From the IMG/VR virus record IMGVR_UViG_3300042453_004296, positions 1 through 64,000 of that record: a DNA stretch of 64,000 nt. One strand, given 5' to 3'. The position numbers and the translations under genes are program-made. Positions 1,227 to 53,703 of the stretch are shown piece after piece (position 1 is the first letter of the stretch; the number at the start of each line of letters is the position of its first letter). The notes below the pieces were generated by a model. The model did not search any database, was not told where the DNA came from, and was given only the letters and a program-made list of their open reading frames with translations. Source of the DNA: a virus.

Positions 1227-2906
1227 TTACAGGGTGTTCAAACCGTTGATGTAAACCTTACCATAGAATTCAGGGCGTAACATCTTCTTAGCGAAACGAG
1301 TCAACAATCCTTTACGTGGAGTGAAGGTAGTTGGATCGTAGATAAGAGGAGTCATGATCAATGGAATGTATGGAGCGAATACAGCACCTGCCTCTAAGAA
1401 TTGCTTACCACGGAAACCTACTAAGATAGTATTTTCAGTCATGTAAGGGTTCTTATAAACAGTGTAACGGCTGTTGAATTGACCAGCTTTTTGTACACCG
1501 AATGCATATTCCATGTCTTCAGCACCGTTAGCATTTGCAGCAAATCCTGGGATTGATTCCAAGATAGTTGAAATAGTTGGAGATACTACCATGAAGTTTG
1601 CACCACCACGAAGGGTTAATTGGTGAATCTTGTTGCTGATCTTGTTGATCTTAGTACCAAGAGTTTGGAACCAAGCACCTTGAGTGTTGTAGAAACCTAA
1701 AGACTGGGTAAAGTCAGTTCCAGCAGCATTCAAAGTATTGTTGTTAACAGCTGACCAGTACTCAGTGTTAGCAGCTGGAGCATCTTCAATTAACATATCT
1801 AAGATTTCTAAGTCGATCTCTAAAGAGATGTACTCACTCATAATGTTAGTTAATTCAGCTTCAGCATCTAAGTTTTGGTAAGCGTTCAAATCTTGTGCAA
1901 ATTCAGGTGTCCATGCCGCCTTTAACTTTTTAGTTTTAGCTGTGATGGTTTGAGATTGCATAGATATGTTGATCTCAGGGATAGCAGCACCGATAGAAGT
2001 AGTACTTGCGTTGTTAGGAACAGCGAATGAGCTACCATCTTCGAAATCACCACGATATTGGTCAGTAGTTGCTTTGTTATAAGTTACAACATAAGCAGCA
2101 CCAGCAGTTGCAAGGTTAGCAGTAGAAGCCGTTACAAAGAATGTAAGACATCCAGAAGCTAATTCCAATTGTGTAAATGCAGGTAAGTTAGTTGCAATTG
2201 TAACAGAACCTGAAGTGATGTTAAATCCACGAACTGCTTCTGGGTCAAAGTTAGGAATAGAAGAAGTTTGGATTGTAAGAGCTTTGATGTTACCAGCAGC
2301 TGCAGAAGCAGATAAAGTTGAATCAAAGTTAACTTGAGCCCAAGAAGCTGTAAATACAGAGTTAGCAGCTATAGCAGCACCCTGAGTAAGAGTAAGAGCT
2401 GAAGATGAGAATTGGTTAGTAGTGTAAGTAAAACGACCAGCACCATATAAACCACCTACAGGAGCAGGAGTTGAGAATGGGGTAGTGCTACCTGCATTAC
2501 GGTTACCATATAAAGATCCGTTCTGAGAGAATGGGTTCTTAGCAGTACCATATTGGAAATCTAAGAAGAATACAAGACCAGAAGGTAAGTTCATTGGTTG
2601 AACGCTAACGAATTCTTTCGCTGCGATTTGACCAAATACCTTACGTACTAATGGCAATGCGATTCCAGTCCAGTTCTCACCAGATTGACCTGAAGTGAAG
2701 TAAGAGCTAGCTCCTGTTGAAGAAGCTTCAACTACTAATTGCTTTGCTTGGTTTTCCAACATCAAAGCCATGTTGTTTTTATTGATATCCTCACCCAAAC
2801 CTTCTAAAAGGCCTGTTTTAGACCACTTGTTAGCTAAACGCGCTGCGTCGCTTTGAAGTGATTTCCATGGGTTTGCAGATTCAACTAATGATTGAATTGT
2901 TTCCAT
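1227..2906 (-). CDS. Major capsid protein, T4 gp23-like
   Basis: This 559-residue protein has the length and position of a gp23-like HK97-fold capsid protein, directly downstream of scaffold and prohead protease genes. The N-terminal about 60 residues are helical and hold several (L/I/V)-x-E sites: SLVE (6-9), GLLE (31-34), LMLE (47-50) and LVVE (56-59). In T4 the gp21 protease removes an N-terminal propeptide at about residue 65, so cleavage near residue 59, just before ASSTGASS, is likely. The middle part (residues 310-400) carries the charged spine region (ITAKTKKLKAAWTPEFAQDL, EAELTNIMSEYISLEIDLEI) typical of gp23 proteins. The start is supported by an A-rich leader (GATTAAAAAA) without Shine-Dalgarno. 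Confidence 0.93.
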   Translation of the reverse strand: METIQSLVESANPWKSLQSDAARLANKWSKTGLLEGLGEDINKNNMALMLENQAKQLVVEASSTGASSYFTSGQSGENWTGIALPLVRKVFGQIAAKEFVSVQPMNLPSGLVFFLDFQYGTAKNPFSQNGSLYGNRNAGSTTPFSTPAPVGGLYGAGRFTYTTNQFSSSALTLTQGAAIAANSVFTASWAQVNFDSTLSASAAAGNIKALTIQTSSIPNFDPEAVRGFNITSGSVTIATNLPAFTQLELASGCLTFFVTASTANLATAGAAYVVTYNKATTDQYRGDFEDGSSFAVPNNASTTSIGAAIPEINISMQSQTITAKTKKLKAAWTPEFAQDLNAYQNLDAEAELTNIMSEYISLEIDLEILDMLIEDAPAANTEYWSAVNNNTLNAAGTDFTQSLGFYNTQGAWFQTLGTKINKISNKIHQLTLRGGANFMVVSPTISTILESIPGFAANANGAEDMEYAFGVQKAGQFNSRYTVYKNPYMTENTILVGFRGKQFLEAGAVFAPYIPLIMTPLIYDPTTFTPRKGLLTRFAKKMLRPEFYGKVYINGLNTL

Positions 2907-4305: not shown

Positions 4306-4623
4306 TTACATATACATTTGTTCGCGTGCTTTATCCTGGGCTAAAATTTGGAACTCCTCTAGATTATTTAGGTAGTCTAGATCTTCATCTGTTAATTCGG
4401 TGCCATCGTTCCACTCAGCGTATGATACATATGAGTCTACGAAATCAGGAGCATCACGTTCATCTACTCCATCTATTTCAATGCTACTATAATTTATACC
4501 TACTTGATCCATTGTTTCTTCAAAAGAAGCAGGGTCATTGTCTTCTATTTCAATATCACCACTTGATACTTCAAATTCGCGGATTACTTCTTTGATAAGA
4601 TTTTTTAGGTATATTCTATTCAT
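4306..4623 (-). CDS. Small acidic putative core protein with prohead-targeting N-terminus
   Basis: The protein starts best at the ATG at 4623 (MNRIYLKNLIKEVIREF); a longer reading frame to 4656 would overlap the protease gene. The start chosen gives 105 residues with a strongly acidic body. The N-terminus matches the shared amphipathic helix and has two I/L-x-E sites (LIKE, VIRE). It lies between the gp21-like protease and the gp22-like scaffold, where T4 keeps its small core genes. A minor prohead core role is likely but inferred from context. Confidence 0.7.
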   Translation of the reverse strand: MNRIYLKNLIKEVIREFEVSSGDIEIEDNDPASFEETMDQVGINYSSIEIDGVDERDAPDFVDSYVSYAEWNDGTELTDEDLDYLNNLEEFQILAQDKAREQMYM

Positions 4624-4627
4624 AGCA

Positions 4628-5239
4628 TTAAAATATTGGGCAAGATCCATTAGCACAAAGTATATCTGTGATAATAGAATTTACTTTTTGGTATTTGTTA
4701 GTTTGAGTAGGTAATTTAGATTCGTTCATCATACCTACTTCTTTCATATATGATCCGGGGTTAGAGGGTGTAGAAACAAAATCCCAGCATAATAATTCGA
4801 AATCGTCTTGTACTTCCATTAAATCACCCATTTGTTTTAATGAACCCATTCCACGTGATGATACACCTACTGGTATACCATTATCAAATAGTGCTTTTAA
4901 AATATTGCCTGATGGTGTAGGTAATAGTTCAATTGCTCCCATTACATGGTCTCCATCCCACCAAATCTTTTTAATGTTGTGAGATACGTTTTTTAAGTTG
5001 ATAATAGAAGAGTCTGGGTGGTCTAGCTCACCTAAAGCACGGTTTGCTTTAACATTCTCCATATACTTGTTTATCTCACGTTCCCACAAATCTCTTGAGT
5101 AGTAACGACCATTGCCGTTTTTAACTTCACAAGTAGCTAATATACCCTCAACAAGTGGGTTACTTGTTGGTACAGTACCTTCAACTAGTTTTAAAGGTTT
5201 AGCAGTAAAAAATTGGGTTTCTATTAATACTTGTTTCAT
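4628..5239 (-). CDS. Prohead core protease, T4 gp21-like
   Basis: This 203-residue protein matches the gp21/S80 family of herpes-like prohead serine proteases. The candidate catalytic His is in ALGELDHPD (His74) and the nucleophile in GIPVGVSSRGMGS (Ser127 or Ser128). The segment DFELLCWDFVSTPSNPG (about 147-163) is the usual region after the catalytic Ser. The protease cleaves after (L/I)-x-E in scaffold, capsid and internal proteins. Its target motif recurs near the N-termini of many proteins in this window. The stop codon of the preceding gene overlaps its start by 4 bases (5236-5239), indicating translational coupling. Confidence 0.92.
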   Translation of the reverse strand: MKQVLIETQFFTAKPLKLVEGTVPTSNPLVEGILATCEVKNGNGRYYSRDLWEREINKYMENVKANRALGELDHPDSSIINLKNVSHNIKKIWWDGDHVMGAIELLPTPSGNILKALFDNGIPVGVSSRGMGSLKQMGDLMEVQDDFELLCWDFVSTPSNPGSYMKEVGMMNESKLPTQTNKYQKVNSIITDILCANGSCPIF

Positions 5240-5727
5240 GCTTTTAAATCAAATTTAACTACGTATCGTACTGTGTCAGATAATGTTTCGTAGCTTTCAA
5301 TTATTTTTTCTAATCCTTCTATATATTCTTCTAATTGGCCAGTTACATTGTCTAGTTTATAACCTAATTCTTCTAGTTCATCAAATTTTTTCTCATCTTC
5401 AGAACTTAATTGTCCACTTTTTTGATATATTTCGTTATATTCTCGAATATGTTCGTCTACATCATTTTTAAAGTTTTCGATTAAAGTAAATTCTTTTTTA
5501 ACTACTTCTATAAAGTTAGTTAACATGTTAGCCATGTTTTGATACCCAGTATCTTTTTCAAGTATCTCAGTTAATTGTTTTCTCCAACCTATTACTTTGA
5601 TAGACAAATCAGATACATACTTATCTACACCCGATAGCAAATCATTCGGATCATCGAATATTTTAGCTTCAGATAAAGCAGCTTTATATTCTTCTTTAAT
5701 TATATTTATTAAATCAGATTTTTTCAT
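5236..5727 (-). CDS. Helical putative prohead core/internal protein
   Basis: The 163-residue product starts MKKSDLINIIKEEYKAALSEAK, which has the shared prohead-targeting helix with IIKE and LSE cleavage sites. The rest is predicted to be alpha-helical coiled coil with many Glu, Lys and Leu (for example VKKEFTLIENFKNDVDEHI). It overlaps the protease gene by 4 bases and follows the 73-residue gene after one base, so it belongs to the head-core operon. No enzyme motif is seen. The role as core or internal protein is inferred. Confidence 0.7.
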   Translation of the reverse strand: MKKSDLINIIKEEYKAALSEAKIFDDPNDLLSGVDKYVSDLSIKVIGWRKQLTEILEKDTGYQNMANMLTNFIEVVKKEFTLIENFKNDVDEHIREYNEIYQKSGQLSSEDEKKFDELEELGYKLDNVTGQLEEYIEGLEKIIESYETLSDTVRYVVKFDLKA

Positions 5728-5728
5728 A

Positions 5729-5950
5729 TTAGTTTCTTGGGTGGTAAGAAAAATCTCCTCTTCGTATTCTTTCTAGTATATCGTATTGTCTTGGGGTAGC
5801 TTTACCACCTCGTTTTTTAACCGAATCTATTACGGATTGAAAGTATTTTCTACTAGATATAGATACACCATTACTTTTATCAAGTACTTGTTGGTAGAAG
5901 TTAGTATTAACTTCTTTATCTTCAAATAGTAAATCTACTAGCTTAATCAT
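5729..5950 (-). CDS. Small basic internal protein candidate
   Basis: This 73-residue protein begins MIKLVDLLFEDKEVN, the short form of the putative targeting peptide (site LFE at 8-10). The remainder is basic (VKKRGGKATPRQYDILERIRRG) and would suit DNA association after cleavage. It overlaps the upstream 307-residue gene by 4 bases. Related N-termini occur in the proteins at 22669-23094 and 52698-53618. Confidence 0.65.
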   Translation of the reverse strand: MIKLVDLLFEDKEVNTNFYQQVLDKSNGVSISSRKYFQSVIDSVKKRGGKATPRQYDILERIRRGDFSYHPRN

Positions 5951-8271: not shown

Positions 8272-10155
8272 TTATTCTCGTATTTGTGATTCATCTAATA
8301 GCGAAGAATCATTCTTTTTTAATGAGATTTTTTTATCTAAAGATTCAATAAGTGATTTATTTTTTAGCATAGTTTCTAATGCTAACGGTGAACCGCCTTT
8401 AAAGTTGTTTTTTAACGACTTATCTTCACCACTATTGTCACCTTTCTTCATACCTACACTACCTAATCTGTCTTTACCCAATGCATTATCTTGAGTGCCA
8501 ATATTAGATGCTTTTTCCTCAGGACGACCTAATTTTAAATCCTCATCATATCCATCAGGTAAACTGTTGTAGCGACCTGCTCCATATAATGCTGCTAAGT
8601 CGTGAGGTGTACCGTATGACTTACCTGATTCTAATGGGTCATTACCTTCGTTTTCGATTTGTTTTAGTCTGAAGGTACGTTTTTGGTCTTCAGCAATCAA
8701 ATCACGGTATTCATCATATTGGTCTTGGCTCAAGTGGAATATGTTATCATAAATCCAATCAGTAGGTAATAATTTAGTTTCCATCATTTGGCGAGCTAAA
8801 TCTACTTTTTCTTTCATCAATGCTATTCTCTCTTGATCATAAATGATAGAAGGAGTAGTTAATGATAATTCGAAATTGGTTAACGATTCGTTCTTATATC
8901 CTTGAGTATATAAATGTACTAAAGCTATCTTGTATAGTTCTGATAGTATAATACGTTGGATGCGATCAATTGTGCGGGCAAAACGAATATCTTCGGCTGC
9001 TAATGTTGCTTTACCAGTTAAATCTTTTTCATAACCCATGAATGCTTTAGGTACTTTTAAAGCAGCAAATAATTTATCTCTTAAATAAACTACGTCTTCA
9101 ATTGCTGTATAATCCATACCTTTAGTAGGTTCAATTTTAGTAGCACTATCATTACCTCTAACCGGTATATAGAAATCTTCTAAAATATTTTGTTGGTTAT
9201 ACTTCATGTTATATTCACCAGTTTGAGGGTCAATAAATGGAGTTTTCTTCATTGTATTGATAGTCTTCTGCATGAAGTTTTCTACTTCATTTGGTGGAAT
9301 AGAACCAACGTTGATATAGAAAATACGTTTTTCTGGGGCGCGAACAATACGATGGATTAGCATTGCGTCTTCCATCAAGATATACTGCTTGTATAATTTA
9401 CGAGCAGGTTCTAAATATGATCTTCCATATGGTAAATAATTCACATCAGTAATTAATCTGAAGTGGGCCATCTCATAGTTATCAAAGTATATTCGGCTAT
9501 CATCTTTTTTAGATGATTGGGTACTTTGGCCTCCAATTCCATAATAACCTGATCCACCAGCATATCCATCTGGTGAGAATGCGAATCTTATTTCAGCTGG
9601 TTTCTTTATATCATAGTTTTCTTGTCTTTCGATATGATATGCAGTGTATGGTATAACATTATATACGCCAAATTTTTCTGCTATTTCTAATTTTAAGAAA
9701 AAGTCACCATACTTACACATTTGACGGATCCAAGACCATAAATTAAACTCAATGTTTAATACATCATAGAATAAGTTGTATAATATTTTTTGTATATCTT
9801 CGTCGCTACTTTTAATTTGAAGTACCTCACCCATATCGTTCTTGAGAGTACATTCGTCTGCGATTATATCCAAAGCAGATGCGATAATAGCATCAGTATC
9901 CATCGCATCGTAGTCAGAGTAAATTTGAGTGCGTAAGTACTTCCAGTTAATATTTAATTGGGCGCCAAATAAAGATGTACTGTTGCTTGAGTAGATACGA
10001 TTGTATCTATCTATAAGAGAATTTGTTTGGTATTCTCCGGTCATTTGGATGCTGTTAACATCCATTACCTTTAATTCATTTCCTCCAGCATTTCTGATTA
10101 TTACATCAGTTGCAAATAATCGCTGCAGACGTGAAAATATACTAGTATCGGCCAT
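8272..10155 (-). CDS. Portal vertex protein, T4 gp20-like
   Basis: This 627-residue protein has the size and position of T4-type portal proteins. Recognisable segments include the N-terminal WKYLRTQIYSDYDAMDTDAI, the SYLEPARKLYKQ region, the stem-associated LIHRIVRAPEKRIFYINVG (about 260-280), and the LTGKATLAAEDIRFARTIDR region. The portal forms the dodecameric DNA channel and nucleates prohead assembly. It follows the terminase gene directly; in T4 the tail sheath and tube genes lie between these two, and they are absent here. A late-type motif lies 20 bases upstream, inside the terminase stop region. Confidence 0.93.
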   Translation of the reverse strand: MADTSIFSRLQRLFATDVIIRNAGGNELKVMDVNSIQMTGEYQTNSLIDRYNRIYSSNSTSLFGAQLNINWKYLRTQIYSDYDAMDTDAIIASALDIIADECTLKNDMGEVLQIKSSDEDIQKILYNLFYDVLNIEFNLWSWIRQMCKYGDFFLKLEIAEKFGVYNVIPYTAYHIERQENYDIKKPAEIRFAFSPDGYAGGSGYYGIGGQSTQSSKKDDSRIYFDNYEMAHFRLITDVNYLPYGRSYLEPARKLYKQYILMEDAMLIHRIVRAPEKRIFYINVGSIPPNEVENFMQKTINTMKKTPFIDPQTGEYNMKYNQQNILEDFYIPVRGNDSATKIEPTKGMDYTAIEDVVYLRDKLFAALKVPKAFMGYEKDLTGKATLAAEDIRFARTIDRIQRIILSELYKIALVHLYTQGYKNESLTNFELSLTTPSIIYDQERIALMKEKVDLARQMMETKLLPTDWIYDNIFHLSQDQYDEYRDLIAEDQKRTFRLKQIENEGNDPLESGKSYGTPHDLAALYGAGRYNSLPDGYDEDLKLGRPEEKASNIGTQDNALGKDRLGSVGMKKGDNSGEDKSLKNNFKGGSPLALETMLKNKSLIESLDKKISLKKNDSSLLDESQIRE

Positions 10156-10175: not shown

Positions 10176-10185
10176 AATAAATATT
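10176..10185 (-). promoter_or_regulatory. Putative late promoter for the portal gene
   Basis: The minus strand reads AATATTTATT about 20 bases upstream of the portal ATG, overlapping the terminase stop codon. The final A of the consensus is replaced by T. Confidence 0.4.
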
Positions 10186-11755
10186 ATAGTAACCAGCTAA
10201 TGTCCTCAGCTCCGTGACCATAGTTTATTTGATATGGGTTATTATATGTATTGGGGTTATATGCCCCTTGAAAATTCGGTCTTGTATTAGCTATATTTGA
10301 AAGCATAGCACGAGCTAAATCAACTCCTTGTGATTTAAATTTAAGAGCAGTGTCTCTTACATACATTGCTGTTCCAAAACTCATAACTAAGTCGTCATTA
10401 TATCCTGATTGTGCTTCTGCTTTACCATTTTTCCAAATAAACACTTTCATTTCTTCAACTAAACGTTTAGATTGTATAATAACACTTTTATCACCAACGT
10501 ATTCTCTAAACTTATTAATAACTAGTGGTCTGGTTCTTAAATTCATTGTAAATCCAGGTACTAGTTTTGATGGATCATCTAGTTTATCTAAATAAGACTC
10601 AGCATTTATAGCTTCAGTTTTAGGAGAATAATATAAGTTTCTATATCCTCTTTCTTGAATTGCATCTAAAGTTGCCCATCCAATATTATTATTTTCAACA
10701 ACTAACAATGCTTCATTGTATTCGGTTGATATTGCTACTAACAAGTAACCAAATTCTTTTGGTGATAATTGTCCTTTATATTCACCTACTTGGGTATTAG
10801 TATCAATATCTATAATATGGAATGCGGAATGGTCTTTACTATCCCCTCGAGCAACGTCAGCCACAACCATATAACTACGAGTATAATCGGCTGGTTCCCA
10901 TATCCATAGGTTACGATCTGCTCCTCGTCTTTCCAAGGGATCTTTAACATATGTTTGAGTAATAAATTCAAGATACTCAGGGTAAAATACAACATCACCT
11001 GAGGTGTTAAAGTCGCAATCACATTCTTGTGCCGCCATTCTAGGGTCACCTAGCAATTCATCTTGTCTTTTTCTCCAGGTTTCATCTCGTTCAGGGTGAA
11101 CATACCATGGTAATTTAATAGGCAAAAATTGGTTTTCACCTGCTTCTGCTTTAACCCACGTTTGGTGAAACCAGTTACCTGTACCGTATGGGGTAGATAA
11201 TACAATTGCTCCTCCTCCGGTGGCTAATGTTTGTTGAGCAGATGCCCAAATTTCACCAATACCATCAATGAATGCGGCCTCATCTATGATTAACAAAGAA
11301 ACAGCTTCGGATCGACCTGCATCGCCTGCTGCTGATACTGCTTTAACTTGAGAGCCATTACTTAGTCGTAATGTTAATTTATTATTTTCTTCAGCGTTTA
11401 TTCTTAACCAGGAAGGTAGGTTTTCATACATGAATTTAACTTTCGTTACCATGTTTTTAGCTGTCTCCTGCTTAGTTGCGATACATAAGATATTTTTATC
11501 TTTATGGAATAACATTAACCATAAAGAATAACCTGCTACTAGAGTTGAGATACCTAGCTGTCTAGATTTAAGTATTATATCATATGGATTATCTCTCCAT
11601 AAGTGTAATACTTTTTCTTGGAACGGGTATAGGTTAAAAATAATTCGGCCACGTTGTGGGTGTTGAATGTGGCAGTATTTCTTCATGAAGTGTGCCGGGT
11701 CTTGAGCGCACTTAAGATATTCCTCTCGGATTATTTGTTTTAAATCTTGGGACAT
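10184..11755 (-). CDS. Terminase large subunit, T4 gp17-like
   Basis: This 523-residue packaging motor has an N-terminal ATPase and a C-terminal RNase H-like nuclease. The ATPase has a Walker A-like SRQLGIST (64-71) and Walker B LLIIDEAAF (154-162). The nuclease has the acidic VVADVARGD (Asp300 first ligand), LVVENNNIG (second ligand, about 357) and YNDDLVMSFG (third, about 455). The first 16 residues (MSQDLKQIIREEYLKC) unexpectedly resemble the prohead-targeting helix shared by the internal proteins, though terminase is not a core protein. The length matches the family. Confidence 0.95.
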   Translation of the reverse strand: MSQDLKQIIREEYLKCAQDPAHFMKKYCHIQHPQRGRIIFNLYPFQEKVLHLWRDNPYDIILKSRQLGISTLVAGYSLWLMLFHKDKNILCIATKQETAKNMVTKVKFMYENLPSWLRINAEENNKLTLRLSNGSQVKAVSAAGDAGRSEAVSLLIIDEAAFIDGIGEIWASAQQTLATGGGAIVLSTPYGTGNWFHQTWVKAEAGENQFLPIKLPWYVHPERDETWRKRQDELLGDPRMAAQECDCDFNTSGDVVFYPEYLEFITQTYVKDPLERRGADRNLWIWEPADYTRSYMVVADVARGDSKDHSAFHIIDIDTNTQVGEYKGQLSPKEFGYLLVAISTEYNEALLVVENNNIGWATLDAIQERGYRNLYYSPKTEAINAESYLDKLDDPSKLVPGFTMNLRTRPLVINKFREYVGDKSVIIQSKRLVEEMKVFIWKNGKAEAQSGYNDDLVMSFGTAMYVRDTALKFKSQGVDLARAMLSNIANTRPNFQGAYNPNTYNNPYQINYGHGAEDISWLL

Positions 11756-11769
11756 AACCTTTTATTATA

Positions 11770-11961
11770 TTACCCTACAGTAATGCTACCACCACTTTGT
11801 AATTTTTTCTCAGCATCTATTTTAGCTTGAGTATTCAATGTGTTATAATCTGGGTCTTTTTTCATGTCATCTACTGCTTTTTTACCAGCATAAGTCCCAG
11901 CTTCACCTAATATTTCGGTGATATTTTCTTCAATGAATTTTTTTAGTTCAGATCGTTTCAT
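11770..11961 (-). CDS. Tiny internal protein candidate with targeting N-terminus
   Basis: The 63-residue product begins MKRSELKKFIEENITEILGEAG: an amphipathic helix with FIEE and ILGE/A sites. Cleavage at ILGE would leave about 43 basic residues starting AGTYAGKKAVDDMKK. It is a minimal example of the shared N-terminal module. A late motif lies 13 bases upstream, and the terminase gene follows. Confidence 0.7.
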   Translation of the reverse strand: MKRSELKKFIEENITEILGEAGTYAGKKAVDDMKKDPDYNTLNTQAKIDAEKKLQSGGSITVG

Positions 11962-15818: not shown

Positions 15819-16718
15819 TTATACTAATCCTGCTTTTTCAAAAATGTCCGGGTCGGTTATTGAAATCCAGTTTGCTTGGATATACTGCTGTTCAGACATA
15901 TCATCCATATATGACATACAGAATCGTCCATAATCATCTCTACTAATATCTTTTCCTTGAGGAAATTCACCCATAAATTTATCTAACATGTCTTCATTTT
16001 CATATGACTTAATCACTTCAAGAACATCATTATATGAGTGACGTTCAGGTGATGCTTTCATAGCTGTGTTTAGATCAAATTCATTTAATTGGTTCTCAAC
16101 TAAGCTTTTTCTTTGATTATATTGAGCTTCGGTAATTACACCTGCCATTTTTTGCATTTTAAGAAATGATTCATTAATAGTAGCTTCTTCACCTTCTTTA
16201 TTTAATACTTTCTTTAGAATAGATCCAGCTACACGTTTTCCTGCTTCTTTAGATCCGTATTCTTTTCCAGCAGCATTAGCTATTTTAGCAAATCCTTTTC
16301 CTTTTTTACCAATGTCAGTTCCTTTTTTAAAACGAGCTTCTTCTAATTCTACTTCAGGAACTATAGCATTTTTCATACTGTCCATTGCATCTCCTTCTTC
16401 AACAGGCTCATCTTTTATTACTTCAGTTTTAGGCTCAGACTTTGAATTAAGTTTATCTAATTGTTTTTTTAATTTAGTTAAACTTTTTTCTAATGCTTTA
16501 ACCTCGCCACTTAATTCTTTCATTTTACCCTTATCAAGCATGTCATGGTATGCTTCATCTAAGCCTTCCATACTCATTTTCTTCTTACGAAGATCAATTG
16601 CTTCTTGAGTTGCAGTCATTTTAGCTTCTAAAGCTGCTTTGTTTCCAGCGTTGTCTATTTCTCTGATGTATTCGTTGATTGATTCACGTATAAGTGAGCG
16701 TAAGTTTTCTACTTTCAT
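15819..16718 (-). CDS. Internal virion/core protein candidate
   Basis: This 299-residue protein starts MKVENLRSLIRESINEYIRE with three I-x-E sites (LIRE, SINE, YIRE). A coiled coil (about 65-100) is followed by a Lys/Gly-rich segment (FKKGTDIGKKGKGFAKIAN) and by SFLKMQKMAGVITEAQYNQR (about 193-212). The last motif resembles the end of the gp22-like scaffold. LVENQLNE provides another cleavage site. The gene sits between its own late motif and a terminator, so it is a single-gene unit. A prohead core role is likely. Confidence 0.7.
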   Translation of the reverse strand: MKVENLRSLIRESINEYIREIDNAGNKAALEAKMTATQEAIDLRKKKMSMEGLDEAYHDMLDKGKMKELSGEVKALEKSLTKLKKQLDKLNSKSEPKTEVIKDEPVEEGDAMDSMKNAIVPEVELEEARFKKGTDIGKKGKGFAKIANAAGKEYGSKEAGKRVAGSILKKVLNKEGEEATINESFLKMQKMAGVITEAQYNQRKSLVENQLNEFDLNTAMKASPERHSYNDVLEVIKSYENEDMLDKFMGEFPQGKDISRDDYGRFCMSYMDDMSEQQYIQANWISITDPDIFEKAGLV

Positions 16719-17937: not shown

Positions 17938-18315
17938 TTACACAGTTTTCTTTTCTACAGATTTAGTTAATTTAAAATTCCTAACACCTTCAATAGCTCG
18001 AATTTTATCAAATAAACCTTGTAAATCTTCATCCTTAAATCCTGATGGGTAAGGGTGTGGGTCGATTTTAATACGAAGGACTGTGTAATAATTTGGGTTA
18101 TTAAATGCTAGTACTTCTGGTCCTTGCATTTCGTAGTCTTTTGTAGACACAATTGTTATACCAGGTAAGGATCTAACATCAGATAATATATCTTTTTGGG
18201 GGCGAGACGTAGTGTCTGTTTGAAGAAGTCCCTCAACATTATATTGAGTAGACTCTTCATTCAGAATATTACTTAATTCCTCTTTAATAAGTTGTATTAA
18301 TTCAGATTTTTTCAC
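17938..18315 (-). CDS. Internal protein candidate with canonical targeting N-terminus
   Basis: The 125-residue protein begins MKKSELIQLIKEELSNILNE, the clearest version of the shared leader (LIKE and ILNE sites). The C-terminal 75 residues look like a small alpha/beta domain (SLPGITIVSTKDYEM, NYYTVLRIKIDPHPYPSGF, IRAIEGVRNFKLTKSV) of ferredoxin-like pattern. It overlaps the upstream 425-residue gene by 4 bases. Cargo function is unknown. Confidence 0.7.
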   Translation of the reverse strand: MKKSELIQLIKEELSNILNEESTQYNVEGLLQTDTTSRPQKDILSDVRSLPGITIVSTKDYEMQGPEVLAFNNPNYYTVLRIKIDPHPYPSGFKDEDLQGLFDKIRAIEGVRNFKLTKSVEKKTV

Positions 18316-19603: not shown

Positions 19604-19993
19604 TTAAAATTGTGATAAATCCACCCCTAATTTAGCAGCCATTGCCTCTAGAGCAGCTTTAAATCCCTCTTCATATCCTTTTTCATATTCTGAAGTTGAT
19701 CCAACACGTGGTTCTGGTTTTCCAGGGTAGTTAAATCCTAATTCGTCTAGGCTTTTCTTAGCTGATTTAAAACGAGCAACAATTTTGTCAATCATTTCTT
19801 CTTCTTTTAAACCAGCTTTTGGTTTTGGATTAACACCAGGAGCAGGCTGATCAAATCCTCTACGCTTTGGAGTAGTGCTAGGGGTTGTTTTAGGTGGAGC
19901 AGTAGTTGTTTCCTTTTCTTTAGCAGGGGCATTTTCAGCTAAAATAGCTACTAATTCCTCTTTAATTATACGTTTTAAGTCTTTAGCGTTCAT
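19604..19993 (-). CDS. Internal protein candidate with Pro/Thr-rich linker
   Basis: The 129-residue product begins MNAKDLKRIIKEELVAILAE (sites IIKE, ILAE/N). A disordered Pro/Thr/Lys linker (about 24-60) and a helical C-terminal domain (VARFKSAKKSLDELGF to the end) follow. The layout of leader, linker, helical domain is like T4 internal proteins. It is one base downstream of the 879-residue gene. Confidence 0.7.
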   Translation of the reverse strand: MNAKDLKRIIKEELVAILAENAPAKEKETTTAPPKTTPSTTPKRRGFDQPAPGVNPKPKAGLKEEEMIDKIVARFKSAKKSLDELGFNYPGKPEPRVGSTSEYEKGYEEGFKAALEAMAAKLGVDLSQF

Positions 19994-22668: not shown

Positions 22669-23094
22669 TTATTCTTTAGTTTTATCAACTAATGGGCCTC
22701 CAACAACCCAAGCATCACAAGTTCGGGCAGCTGCGCATTTAAATTTTAAAAATCTACAATACCCTAATTTACCAGCGTTAATTACATCAAATGGATCTTC
22801 TGATCCTTCATCATTACCTATTCCTTTAGCTATACAATCTAATGTTTTTGTTGTAATATCAAAAGCAGCACAATTATCACATAATGAAGTTTTAGCTTCT
22901 TCTATAGAGTCAAGCTGCCACATATCTGCTTTAGCTTGCCAAAATTTTTCATTTGGTTCATTTGGATTTAAAGGACCATATCCTTGACCTTCAATAGCTT
23001 TTTGTCTGTTTTGAAGATTTAGTTCTATATTTTGAGTAGGAGCAGGACATTTATTCATATCTGCTTCATTTAAGATGTCTACTAATTTAATCAT
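22669..23094 (-). CDS. Cys-rich internal protein candidate
   Basis: The start at 23094 (MIKLVDILNEADMNK) overlaps the previous stop by 4 bases and gives the shared leader with an ILNE/A site. A longer frame adds five residues inside the preceding gene. The 141-residue body has paired cysteines: SLCDNCAAFD (about 75), LDCI, and GYCRFLKFKCAAARTCDAW (about 116-134). This CxxC...C...C...C arrangement suggests metal binding (zinc or an iron-sulfur cluster). I have no named family. Confidence 0.65.
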   Translation of the reverse strand: MIKLVDILNEADMNKCPAPTQNIELNLQNRQKAIEGQGYGPLNPNEPNEKFWQAKADMWQLDSIEEAKTSLCDNCAAFDITTKTLDCIAKGIGNDEGSEDPFDVINAGKLGYCRFLKFKCAAARTCDAWVVGGPLVDKTKE

Positions 23095-24200: not shown

Positions 24201-24652
24201 TAACGGGCCAGTAAATAAACCAAAGGAGCAATAATGATTAATGATGCTCCACCTGTTATAAATGTTGCTTTAACCCATTTATTTTTTTCATTAATCATGT
24301 TGGTTAATGTAACCTTTGTATTTTCATGAGCCGTATATTCAGTATTATATTTATTTTGGAAGTCTCTAGATACAACTAATAAGTTATCGTATTCATTATT
24401 TAAATGATCATATGCTGATCTTTCTCTTTCGATTTGTAAATCAGCATCCATAGCATATTTTTCCCATTTTGCTTTTTCAAGCTTACATCCTTCAAACTGT
24501 TTAAATTTTACTAATAATTCAATTTCTTGTTTGTTAGTAAAAAATATACCAGTATCACCACCAAAAACAATACGTTTAGGGGTTAAGTGTTGACCACATG
24601 CTATCACGTTGGTCAATAGTAAAATTATGGATATTAGAAATGTCTTTAGCAT
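24200..24652 (-). CDS. Spanin-like outer-membrane lipoprotein (u-spanin architecture)
   Basis: The start at 24652 gives MLKTFLISIILLLTNVIACG, a lipoprotein signal peptide with lipidated Cys19 (VIAC). A long helical coiled-coil region (about 45-125) follows. The C-terminus is a hydrophobic segment (ATFITGGASLIIIAPLVYLL) that should span the inner membrane. Lipid anchor plus C-terminal membrane helix is the layout of one-piece spanins such as phage T1 gp11, which disrupt the outer membrane at lysis. The gene overlaps the upstream membrane protein gene by 77 bases in another frame, as Rz/Rz1 pairs do. Total 150 residues. An alternative frame start at 24706 lacks a lipobox near the N-terminus. 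Confidence 0.7.
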   Translation of the reverse strand: MLKTFLISIILLLTNVIACGQHLTPKRIVFGGDTGIFFTNKQEIELLVKFKQFEGCKLEKAKWEKYAMDADLQIERERSAYDHLNNEYDNLLVVSRDFQNKYNTEYTAHENTKVTLTNMINEKNKWVKATFITGGASLIIIAPLVYLLAR

Positions 24653-43589: not shown

Positions 43590-44081
43590 TTATATATTTA
43601 ATATTATCTGGTTGTTAGGCCCGTTCATAAATGAGTAGGTTAAAACTATGTTGATAGAGTTAATATCATAGTTTGGGGTAATTACTAGACTTTGTATGTT
43701 TAGTTGGGGGAAATTACTTTGTATTTCTTGTTGTAGTGTTGTTTGTAATGTTGATATATTCATATCAGCATAAGCTGTGGATATCCCATTAGCATTATTT
43801 GTAGTTGAATACACATTAGGGTTAGGGATATCTCCTTCTATCATGTTTTGAAAAACATATCTTCTTAGATTACTACCATAATTGGGGTTTAAATATCTTT
43901 CACCCTTATTAGTCAACATAAAATTAATTAAATTAGAACGAATTTGTTCTGTAGAGGTGTATGTTGATGGGAATACAGCATCTGATCCGCTTATTGTTGA
44001 GCCAACAAACGGGATACTTACTCCTATTGCTACTTGATAATCAAGATTTAAAGGGTCAATATTTTCTACTCTATATGCCAT
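43590..44081 (-). CDS. Baseplate wedge protein, T4 gp25-like
   Basis: The 163-residue protein contains TSTEQIRSNLINFMLTNKGE and RYLNPNYGSNLRRYVFQNM, the GPW/gp25 family signature with the EIRxxLxxxL and GxR-x-x-P-x-x-G pattern. It forms part of the inner baseplate. The start shares an ATG/stop overlap with the upstream 120-residue gene. Confidence 0.93.
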   Translation of the reverse strand: MAYRVENIDPLNLDYQVAIGVSIPFVGSTISGSDAVFPSTYTSTEQIRSNLINFMLTNKGERYLNPNYGSNLRRYVFQNMIEGDIPNPNVYSTTNNANGISTAYADMNISTLQTTLQQEIQSNFPQLNIQSLVITPNYDINSINIVLTYSFMNGPNNQIILNI

Positions 44082-44443
44082 TATTTAGCGTTCATTAATC
44101 CCATTATTTGATCTAAGCCTACTTCGCCACCAGGTAAACTTGATCCTTCACTCATTGTACTAACCGGAGGAGGAGTATAAGCAGGTTGAGCGTGTGATGA
44201 ATTGGCAGTTATTACCGCATCAAATTCACCCCCGATCATGTTTTTTAGATTGCGTCTAAGATCATGATTCACTGTGGTTCCGTTTGGTTGAATTGATACG
44301 GGTTGGGGAGGAACAGGGATGTAGTTTTCTTGTACTACTGTTTTAGGTGATTTAACTGCTTCAAGTAGAATATCTTTTAATTCTTCTTGAATTGCTTCAC
44401 GTACTGCTTCTTTAATTAATTTTTTTAGTCCGTCGATTTTCAT
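44081..44443 (-). CDS. Putative internal protein with targeting leader inside baseplate cluster
   Basis: The 120-residue product starts MKIDGLKKLIKEAVREAIQE and continues to ILLEAVK, with three candidate sites (LIKE/A, AIQE/E, LLE/A). The rest is Pro-rich and partly disordered (YIPVPPQPVSIQPNG, PAYTPPPVSTMSEGSS). Although in the baseplate operon, the leader is the same as in head-core genes. Either it is packaged, or the helix has a second use in the baseplate. A late motif lies 5 bases upstream. Confidence 0.65.
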   Translation of the reverse strand: MKIDGLKKLIKEAVREAIQEELKDILLEAVKSPKTVVQENYIPVPPQPVSIQPNGTTVNHDLRRNLKNMIGGEFDAVITANSSHAQPAYTPPPVSTMSEGSSLPGGEVGLDQIMGLMNAK

Positions 44444-49432: not shown

Positions 49433-49441
49433 TATAAATAT
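49433..49441 (-). promoter_or_regulatory. Putative late promoter for the baseplate operon
   Basis: GATATTTATAAA on the minus strand, 14 bases before the ATG at 49418; overlaps the last codon of the sigma-like gene. Confidence 0.55.
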
Positions 49442-50148
49442 CAATGGTGAAAATCTGTATAGCCGTTTTCTAGGTAGAAATAATAATGTTGCTTGAATAT
49501 ATCGTATAATTTGTTGGCTATTTTGGTGATTTTAGGTGTTTTAGCATCAATAATCTCACGAATATATATGTATAATGCTTTCTTATTAAATACATCAATA
49601 TTCTCACGTTTACGAAATAATTCTAATATCGCATCAGCAATTTGAGCATCATTTTCTTTGGGAAATAAAGCATAAATATTTTTAGTACAATGATCTACAT
49701 ACTCATCTATGAAGTTAGATAATTTATCTTGGGATGAACCTTCGTCTATTCTATAAGAAAAATCTTCATTTGATTCAATTTCTTCAATAGGTGCTTTATC
49801 TACTCGTTTTTTATAATTTTTAGTATTAGTTACTATCAAGTAGCGTTTAGCAATAGTACCGAAATAAGAATAAGCTTTAGCTCCTCGTTCTGGGTTAAAT
49901 AAGTGTATTTTAGAAAGTAAAAATGTGATTACTTCGTGTTGTAAATCTTCAATGTTGTCTACTTCAGTATAATAAAACTTAAAAGTATGGATAATATTTT
50001 CTGTTAACTTAAAGAAAGCATAATGGATGCGTTCACGATATATTTTATCTTTTAACTCAAAATCAGTAGTAGTATTGTACGATACAATAGCATTCTCAGT
50101 GTCTTGAGTAAAATACTGTGTGTTTTTCTTTTCTTTCACCTCGGTCAT
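49441..50148 (-). CDS. Late transcription sigma factor, T4 gp55-like
   Basis: The 235-residue product contains the sigma region-2-like segment LFNPERGAKAYSYFGTIAKR followed by YLI (about 90-112), preceded by DIEDLQHEVITFLLSKIH-like helix. This pattern matches T4 gp55, the sigma factor that recognises the -10-only late promoter. No region 4 is evident, fitting promoters without -33 boxes. It probably directs host RNA polymerase to the ATATTTATA sites listed here; the assignment is from motif and context. Confidence 0.75.
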   Translation of the reverse strand: MTEVKEKKNTQYFTQDTENAIVSYNTTTDFELKDKIYRERIHYAFFKLTENIIHTFKFYYTEVDNIEDLQHEVITFLLSKIHLFNPERGAKAYSYFGTIAKRYLIVTNTKNYKKRVDKAPIEEIESNEDFSYRIDEGSSQDKLSNFIDEYVDHCTKNIYALFPKENDAQIADAILELFRKRENIDVFNKKALYIYIREIIDAKTPKITKIANKLYDIFKQHYYFYLENGYTDFHH

Positions 50149-52697: not shown

Positions 52698-53618
52698 TTA
52701 AATTAATTCCATCTCCACATCATCGTCCGTCTCACGCACGATTACCATGGCATCCTGTAGAGCTACTACTATTGTTGAATATTGATCCTCCCTATATCCC
52801 CCTAGTACCTGATATAGGTCTGCTTGGTCTACTACATCCATTATAGAGGCAGATTCGTCTACTATGTCTTGGAGTTGAGCAACTTTTATTTTTGTTGAAG
52901 GCTCAAATACACCATAGTCACCCCCACTCAAAGACAAACCAGCAAGCTTCCGCTTAATATCTAATAATACTTGTGGAGGACTAACAGATACAATAAGGTG
53001 ATCTAAACCAACATCGTTTAAAATATTGCGATTATCTACATCTTCCGCAGACATTGGTACTATTATATTTCCCACTTGAGCACCGAAAAAATTACCGGAT
53101 TCCGCGCCTAAAGGCGCTAATTTCTTAACCCATACGGCTAAGCTACCCTCATACAATATATTATCTGAAAATACATTTTTATATGCTTTTAAAAGCATAG
53201 TGTACATTTTATACCCTAAACCTTTACCCCTCCACGGCTCAGTAACATATGTTAAATGTATCTCAGCCCCAGTGATTTTAAATGGTTTCCATCTCTCACC
53301 TGTTAGATTAATGATATCTACATCTATAGTACCTATAACATAGCTTTCTAAATCAGTACCAGCCGAATTAACCAAGTACAAGGTACCAGTATAAGTAGAT
53401 GGTACTATGAATTGATAAGGACCATCTTCAGATAAAACCGTCCCTTTAAGTATAGAAGGATCGAAATTAACCCCATACACATCCATGTCATCCGGATCTA
53501 ATCTAAAATCTTCTAAGAATGTATAGTATGTTTTAGTGTCATCTACGTATAAATCACCACTACGAAGTTCTAATTCATCAAGATTTATTTCCTTAAGTAA
53601 CTCAGTCAGTTTTATCAT
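52698..53618 (-). CDS. GNAT-family acetyltransferase with prohead-targeting N-terminus
   Basis: The 306-residue protein begins MIKLTELLKEINLDE, the shared short leader (LLKE site). The GNAT acetyl-CoA loop is in HLTYVTEPWRGKGLGYKMYT (RGKGLG at 130-135), followed by the usual helix MLLKAYKNVF. A C-terminal unassigned domain (about 200-306) follows. It lies in the early region but has a late motif next to its start, which supports a virion-borne enzyme, comparable to T4 Alt (an injected ADP-ribosyltransferase). The target of acetylation is unknown. Confidence 0.72.
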   Translation of the reverse strand: MIKLTELLKEINLDELELRSGDLYVDDTKTYYTFLEDFRLDPDDMDVYGVNFDPSILKGTVLSEDGPYQFIVPSTYTGTLYLVNSAGTDLESYVIGTIDVDIINLTGERWKPFKITGAEIHLTYVTEPWRGKGLGYKMYTMLLKAYKNVFSDNILYEGSLAVWVKKLAPLGAESGNFFGAQVGNIIVPMSAEDVDNRNILNDVGLDHLIVSVSPPQVLLDIKRKLAGLSLSGGDYGVFEPSTKIKVAQLQDIVDESASIMDVVDQADLYQVLGGYREDQYSTIVVALQDAMVIVRETDDDVEMELI

Positions 53619-53621
53619 ATT

Positions 53622-53630
53622 AATAAATAT
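53622..53630 (-). promoter_or_regulatory. Putative late promoter for the acetyltransferase
   Basis: GATATTTATT on the minus strand, three bases before the ATG at 53618. It differs from consensus at the last base. It is the only late-type element in the 52-64 kb region that I found. Confidence 0.45.
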
Positions 53631-53703
53631 CTAAGGACTAAGGAAGGACCCACACATGGATCCATCCCTCGCACCTTAATACGTATATACAACTATAAGC
53701 AAT

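Follow-up and report, generated by a model that had tools for sequence, protein, structure and literature searches.

The 306-aa product of a gene at 52698..53618 (minus strand, ATG start) of the window, the 64,000-nucleotide stretch analysed here, which was taken from a 70,014-base IMG/VR virus record, is a GNAT by fold and acetyl-CoA loop, and its first ten residues, MIKLTELLKE, are by sequence comparison a genuine modular leader. We consider it quite likely that the enzyme is made late, targeted to the capsid, cleaved and injected to act on the next host. The GNAT fold, the modular leader, a matching protease in the genome and a conserved late-type element were computed here; packaging, cleavage, ejection and substrate are inferred. 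Its T4-type address label makes it probable that this GNAT is injected along with the DNA, and delivery in the manner of T4 Alt was inferred from the leader, the protease and the genes accompanying the leader. As far as sequence goes, this largely supports the interpretation of an earlier note on this DNA, that of an acetyltransferase injected at infection, although injection itself has not been shown.

Genomic setting of the GNAT gene

The window phage is T4-like. It encodes a T4-type major capsid protein (1227..2906, minus strand; phrog_138, E=3e-68), a portal (8272-10155) and a large terminase (10184-11755), and among isolates Flavobacterium phage immuto comes nearest to it in the capsid protein, at 54% identity. 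The GNAT gene adjoins two tRNA-Met genes and small ORFs and lies just upstream of a sigma-factor/baseplate late block; a sigma-70 region-2 protein at 49441..50148 (minus strand) is a candidate late sigma factor of the gp55-like kind, with a Pfam match below the cut-off (E=6e-4). The assignment of the gene to the early region has to be softened, as it sits at the early/late boundary, judged from its neighbours and without data on its expression class.

The gene order GIY-YIG, variable gene, HD hydrolase, sigma-like gene, baseplate is common to the window and immuto, with an unrelated lipoprotein-like ORF in the variable slot of immuto in place of the GNAT. Relatives of the GNAT, 34-100% identical, were found only on uncultured viral contigs. 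A tblastn search of 50,697 phage records gave no homologue, leaving the gene in no isolate, and none was found in bacterial or archaeal genome contigs.

The protein has a predicted GNAT fold

The motif RGKGLG had been read as a GNAT acetyl-CoA loop, and this reading was borne out by an alignment of 20 sequences with identity down to 34%. R130, K132, G133 and G135 of this pyrophosphate loop (residues 130-135; 53214..53231, minus strand), that is R-x-K-G-x-G, were unchanged in all 20. The loop comes after the strand of residues 115-125 and before the helix of residues 134-146 in the AlphaFold2 model, which agrees with the superfamily criterion, an acetyl-CoA loop of the form R/Q-x-x-G-x-G/A that joins beta4 to alpha3. 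The candidate catalytic base, E119, was found as Q in the two most divergent family members. Pfam Acetyltransf_1 matched the window protein only weakly and below the cut-off (E=0.007), and a relative 57% identical to it (L109) passed, with E=8.6e-5 and 23.2 bits against a curated cut-off of 20.7 bits.

Structure prediction, proposed in the earlier note as the check that could refute the claim if no GNAT fold appeared, returned a GNAT fold (pLDDT 83, pTM 0.81, from the 20-sequence alignment). The wider alignment was needed for a confident model, as six close relatives alone gave a pLDDT of 50. Foldseek matched Naa10, Naa60, AtaT, TacT and YlbP in the PDB at probability 0.98-1.00; matches there were GNATs throughout, viral GNATs were matched too, and the likeness was at the generic fold level, with 10-15% identity. 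The TM-scores normalised to the query were low because the query carries an extra domain. The GNAT core, placed by AlphaFold2 secondary structure and Foldseek, covers about residues 59-188 (53055..53444, minus strand) and is followed by a C-terminal alpha/beta domain of about residues 189-306 (52701..53054, minus strand), confidently folded in the AlphaFold2 model. The top-ranked PDB matches were N-myristoyltransferases, at low TM-scores. N-myristoyltransferases have a double GNAT fold, and on the model the C-terminal domain is possibly a second GNAT-like half; given the low scores, this is merely suggested. Acetyltransferase activity is inferred from fold and loop, without assay data.

The leader is shared by many dissimilar proteins

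IMG/VR was searched for codons that spell MIKLx[D/E]LLxE, and the matches listed come from 120 contigs. There were at least 129 matches, and among the matches listed 115 of 129 begin an ORF that is 60 aa or longer and has a stop codon shortly before it. The residue-reversed control pattern, searched in the whole collection, did so in only 8 of 69 cases (Fisher 2.5e-28), which rules out a chance leader and places the proposed targeting leader far beyond chance. The leader codons vary synonymously, so that it is the peptide and not the DNA that is conserved; a translation or regulatory signal conserved at the DNA level only is thereby ruled out as well.

With the leader set aside, the proteins that carry it sort into at least 68 groups that have no 4-mers in common. 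Some of these groups, such as those of P-loop kinases, are likely to be distantly homologous, and the number of independent families is therefore smaller. Their Pfam matches comprise zeta toxin, ART-PolyVal, lysozyme, hydrolase, HAD and GNAT, and most have no Pfam match at all. The further leader proteins of the GNAT-bearing phages are kinases and a HAD-like protein. The leader had not been described in the open-licence literature that was searched.

Positions 4, 7, 8 and 10 were fixed by the pattern in the family scan; the window protein has L4, L7, L8 and E10. Among 20 starts not chosen by the full pattern, position 8 was hydrophobic in 18 and position 10 was E in 10, the others having E9 or E11. 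The leader was retained at 7 of 9 positions where the GNAT body was only 33-35% identical. One divergent record (L218, with its copy L219) has S and not E at position 10, and a site further on, MME|LDIR, might be used there instead. When E10 was left free, every one of the 22 large leader contigs had matches to the pattern, as many as 7 in a contig and on a single strand within each, and none of 21 control contigs had any. Because the leader contigs had been picked for at least one match, only the additional matches are informative.

Two further proteins of the window begin with such a leader: one of 73 aa (MIKLVDLLFED; 5729..5950, minus strand) within the head gene cluster, and a cysteine-bearing one of 141 aa (MIKLVDILNEA; 22669..23094, minus strand), whose relatives are annotated as high-potential iron-sulfur protein. 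The family of the latter (also in L072 and L234) neighbours a capsid maturation protease in Actinomycetia phage DSL-LC01. Such a leader also occurs in immuto, as MIKLIDLLTES at 24569, beside other leader-like proteins of that isolate. A leader-bearing family of about 310 aa with the motifs WYPAHTR...FHVT...KSISTFT (L017, L032, L033, L043, L099) is in its sequence reminiscent of ADP-ribosyltransferases, the fold being unchecked. Leader-bearing proteins with LYHYT or LYHGT starts occur in L062 (11520-12198), L067, L111 and L124, and look like ADP-ribosyltransferase-type domains, the enzyme class of T4 Alt.

Other shared N-termini were seen as well. A second class, MKxxxLKxLIKEEL..ILxE, begins many otherwise different late-region proteins (window 4306-4623, 5236-5727, 11770-11961, 15819-16718, 17938-18315, 19604-19993 and 44081-44443) and is possibly a second head- or virion-addressing helix. 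In the isolate immuto, four proteins have N-termini resembling ENFDLKKFLVENKLTxNS and make up a further family with a common leader (L199 1803; L201 3806, 17631 and 18632, equal to immuto 1803, 103806, 117631 and 118632).

The leader matches the T4 capsid targeting sequence

By leader scan and T4 comparison, codons 1-10 (53589..53618, minus strand) encode a leader of the capsid targeting sequence (CTS) type. The N-terminus of T4 Alt, MELITELFDE, aligns with MIKLTELLKE without gaps, and that of T4 IPII and IPIII is MKTYQEFIAE. The first 10 residues of T4 IPIII are enough for packaging, residues 4 and 7 serving targeting and residues 8 and 10 processing (PMC9026906); these are the very positions, 4, 7, 8 and 10, that are conserved in the leader. 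T4 Alt is processed at ITE-6 (PMC5694885), and the internal proteins of T-even phages are a diverse defence set in which the CTS is the sole shared part (PMC3012670). Three of the criteria for a T4-type head protein targeted by a CTS are satisfied by sequence: an N-terminal leader of 10-20 residues common to otherwise unrelated proteins, the critical residues, and an S77 protease in the genome.

This protease, a prohead Peptidase_S77 of the T4 gp21 family (4628..5239, minus strand; PF03420, E=9.5e-29), is presumed to be the leader-cleaving enzyme. Candidate prohead-protease sites were read from the sequence, without experiment, after E6 (LTE), E10 (LKE) and E15 (LDE) at 53574..53603 (minus strand), and the junction E|L[D/E][L/I]R is seen again in relatives, at varying distance from the start. 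A T4-type major capsid protein or S77 was present on 16 of 22 large leader contigs versus 5 of 21 controls (Fisher p=0.002). Among the matches listed, homologues of window genes lie within a few kilobases of 58 of the 120 leader loci, with TerL at 29, S77 at 27, portal at 26 and baseplate at just 1. No virion proteomics was found for the window phage or any relative, also when sought through the other leader proteins.

A conserved late-type element precedes the gene

The earlier note had also placed a late-type promoter next to the start. An element of this type was indeed found, conserved and 3 nt before the ATG (TATTTATT, one base off TATTTATA; 53622..53629, minus strand), but it is not the classical T4 late promoter TATAAATA, which was unsupported on the coding strand, the enriched word being TATTTATA. 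Exact TATTTATA occurs within 45 nt of 15 of the 68 window gene starts, against a background of 1.3%. TATTTAT is the 7-mer most enriched for late genes in immuto, where TATTTATA precedes 15 of 79 late-block genes versus 6 of 101 others, with the early/late split drawn by hand from the annotation. All 4 leader-type genes in the non-late blocks had 7 or 8 matches, a post hoc count.

In 17 of the 19 records of GNAT orthologues, exactly 3 nt separate TATTTAT[A/T/G] from the ATG; the other two have a different upstream sequence. The 17 cases are not all independent, several records being near-identical, but they cover a range of 34-100% identity. The 3-nt spacing was found in 13 of 127 leader genes (among the matches listed) versus 14 of 1041 other ORFs. 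With the element so near the ATG, transcription from a T4-like start point would begin within the start codon itself and leave no room for a 5' UTR; the mRNAs may be leaderless, or the element may act otherwise. Late expression of the gene is inferred from the conserved element, without transcript data.

Further upstream lie a conserved terminator-like hairpin (53642..53668, minus strand), with two-sided changes at 5 of 10 pairs in relatives, and a conserved element, GTATATACGTATTAA (53676..53690, minus strand). Most GNAT orthologues keep GTATATACGTATTAA some 60-75 nt upstream, including ones with a different upstream gene. It was ruled out as a general early promoter, its core having just two copies in the contig.

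Proposed delivery and alternatives

We propose that the gene has a late element of its own, of the TATTTATA type, from which the GNAT would be made late in infection, and that the first 10 residues of the enzyme, acting as a T4-type CTS, would bind the prohead core. The S77 prohead protease would then cut after a glutamate (E6, E10 or E15) and free the mature enzyme inside the head. At the next infection the GNAT would exit with the DNA and, ahead of all phage gene expression, acetylate a host protein or else a component of a defence; this would be the T4 Alt strategy with acetylation replacing ADP-ribosylation. The evidence also leans towards a wider reading, that MIKLx[D/E]LLxE, often behind TATTTATA at a fixed 3 nt before the ATG, serves a large and mostly uncultured lineage of T4-like phages as a general capsid address and marks a big, exchangeable repertoire of injected enzymes: GNATs, including this one, ADP-ribosyltransferases, zeta-toxin-like kinases, phosphatases and hydrolases.

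The substrate of a delivered GNAT could instead be tRNA or aminoacyl-tRNA, as for AtaT and TacT, or a small molecule. This variant of our explanation is possible but rather unlikely: AtaT and TacT3 were among the Foldseek matches at probability 1.00, but protein N-terminal acetyltransferases matched equally well, all of them generically. We doubt that the GNAT is packaged in the prohead but active in assembly or late in the cell, for example by acetylating core or capsid proteins. The late-type element and the leader would account for prohead entry without ejection, and another leader protein of the window sits in the head cluster; however, the sister leader proteins with Pfam matches are mostly of host-directed types (zeta toxin, ART, lysozyme), and no substrate in heads is known. 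It is likewise improbable that the leader is some other short amphipathic helix, for oligomerisation, membrane or chaperone binding, on an ordinary cytoplasmic phage acetyltransferase, for even though direct packaging data are lacking and AlphaFold2 gave the leader as a poorly placed, detached helix of low confidence, it agrees with the T4 CTS position by position, is associated with S77 and head genes and stands on at least 68 dissimilar protein groups.

Delivery from the virion, as we propose for this GNAT, matters since such effectors act before phage gene expression, and they are hard to spot from sequence. Because related uncultured phages carry the label on dozens of different proteins, injected proteins can be found through their sequence, and a searchable leader would yield candidate effectors directly from metagenomes. 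It would also carry the T4 capsid targeting principle over to dozens of protein families, and delivered acetylation would add a new chemistry beside the ADP-ribosylation of Alt.

Comparison with known systems

T4 Alt is the closest parallel in kind, a host-modifying enzyme whose N-terminus shares T-E-L at positions 5-7 and E10 with the window leader. The window enzyme, however, has the non-homologous GNAT fold, and delivery is proven for Alt alone. T4 IPI-IPIII likewise have a 10-residue N-terminal leader with hydrophobic residues at 4, 7 and 8, an acidic residue at 6 and E10, and there too one leader stands on unrelated bodies, with ipII and ipIII beside non-structural genes (they adjoin denV and vs). 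They differ in the leader itself (MKTYQEFIAE, as against the window-type consensus MIKLxDLLxE), and the window-type leader stands on a far wider range of cargo, enzymes among it.

Rac of phiKMV-like phages is also a phage GNAT that attacks the host, leading to cleavage of RNAP alpha, but it is described as expressed after infection (PMC7552054). No sequence relation between Rac and the window GNAT was found by tblastn in the 50,697 phage records. For GNATs of polyvalent proteins, entry into the cell from the virion has been predicted, in some cases together with an ART; those GNATs are domains of large multidomain proteins or solo late genes in mycobacteriophages (PMC5512222). The window GNAT, by contrast, is small and bears a T4-type leader; against the polyvalent criterion of 2-15 domains it has, in 306 aa, one GNAT domain and an unassigned C-terminal domain. 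As injected GNATs have been predicted before and Rac is known, this kind of enzyme is already known; the newer part is the cargo repertoire defined by the leader.
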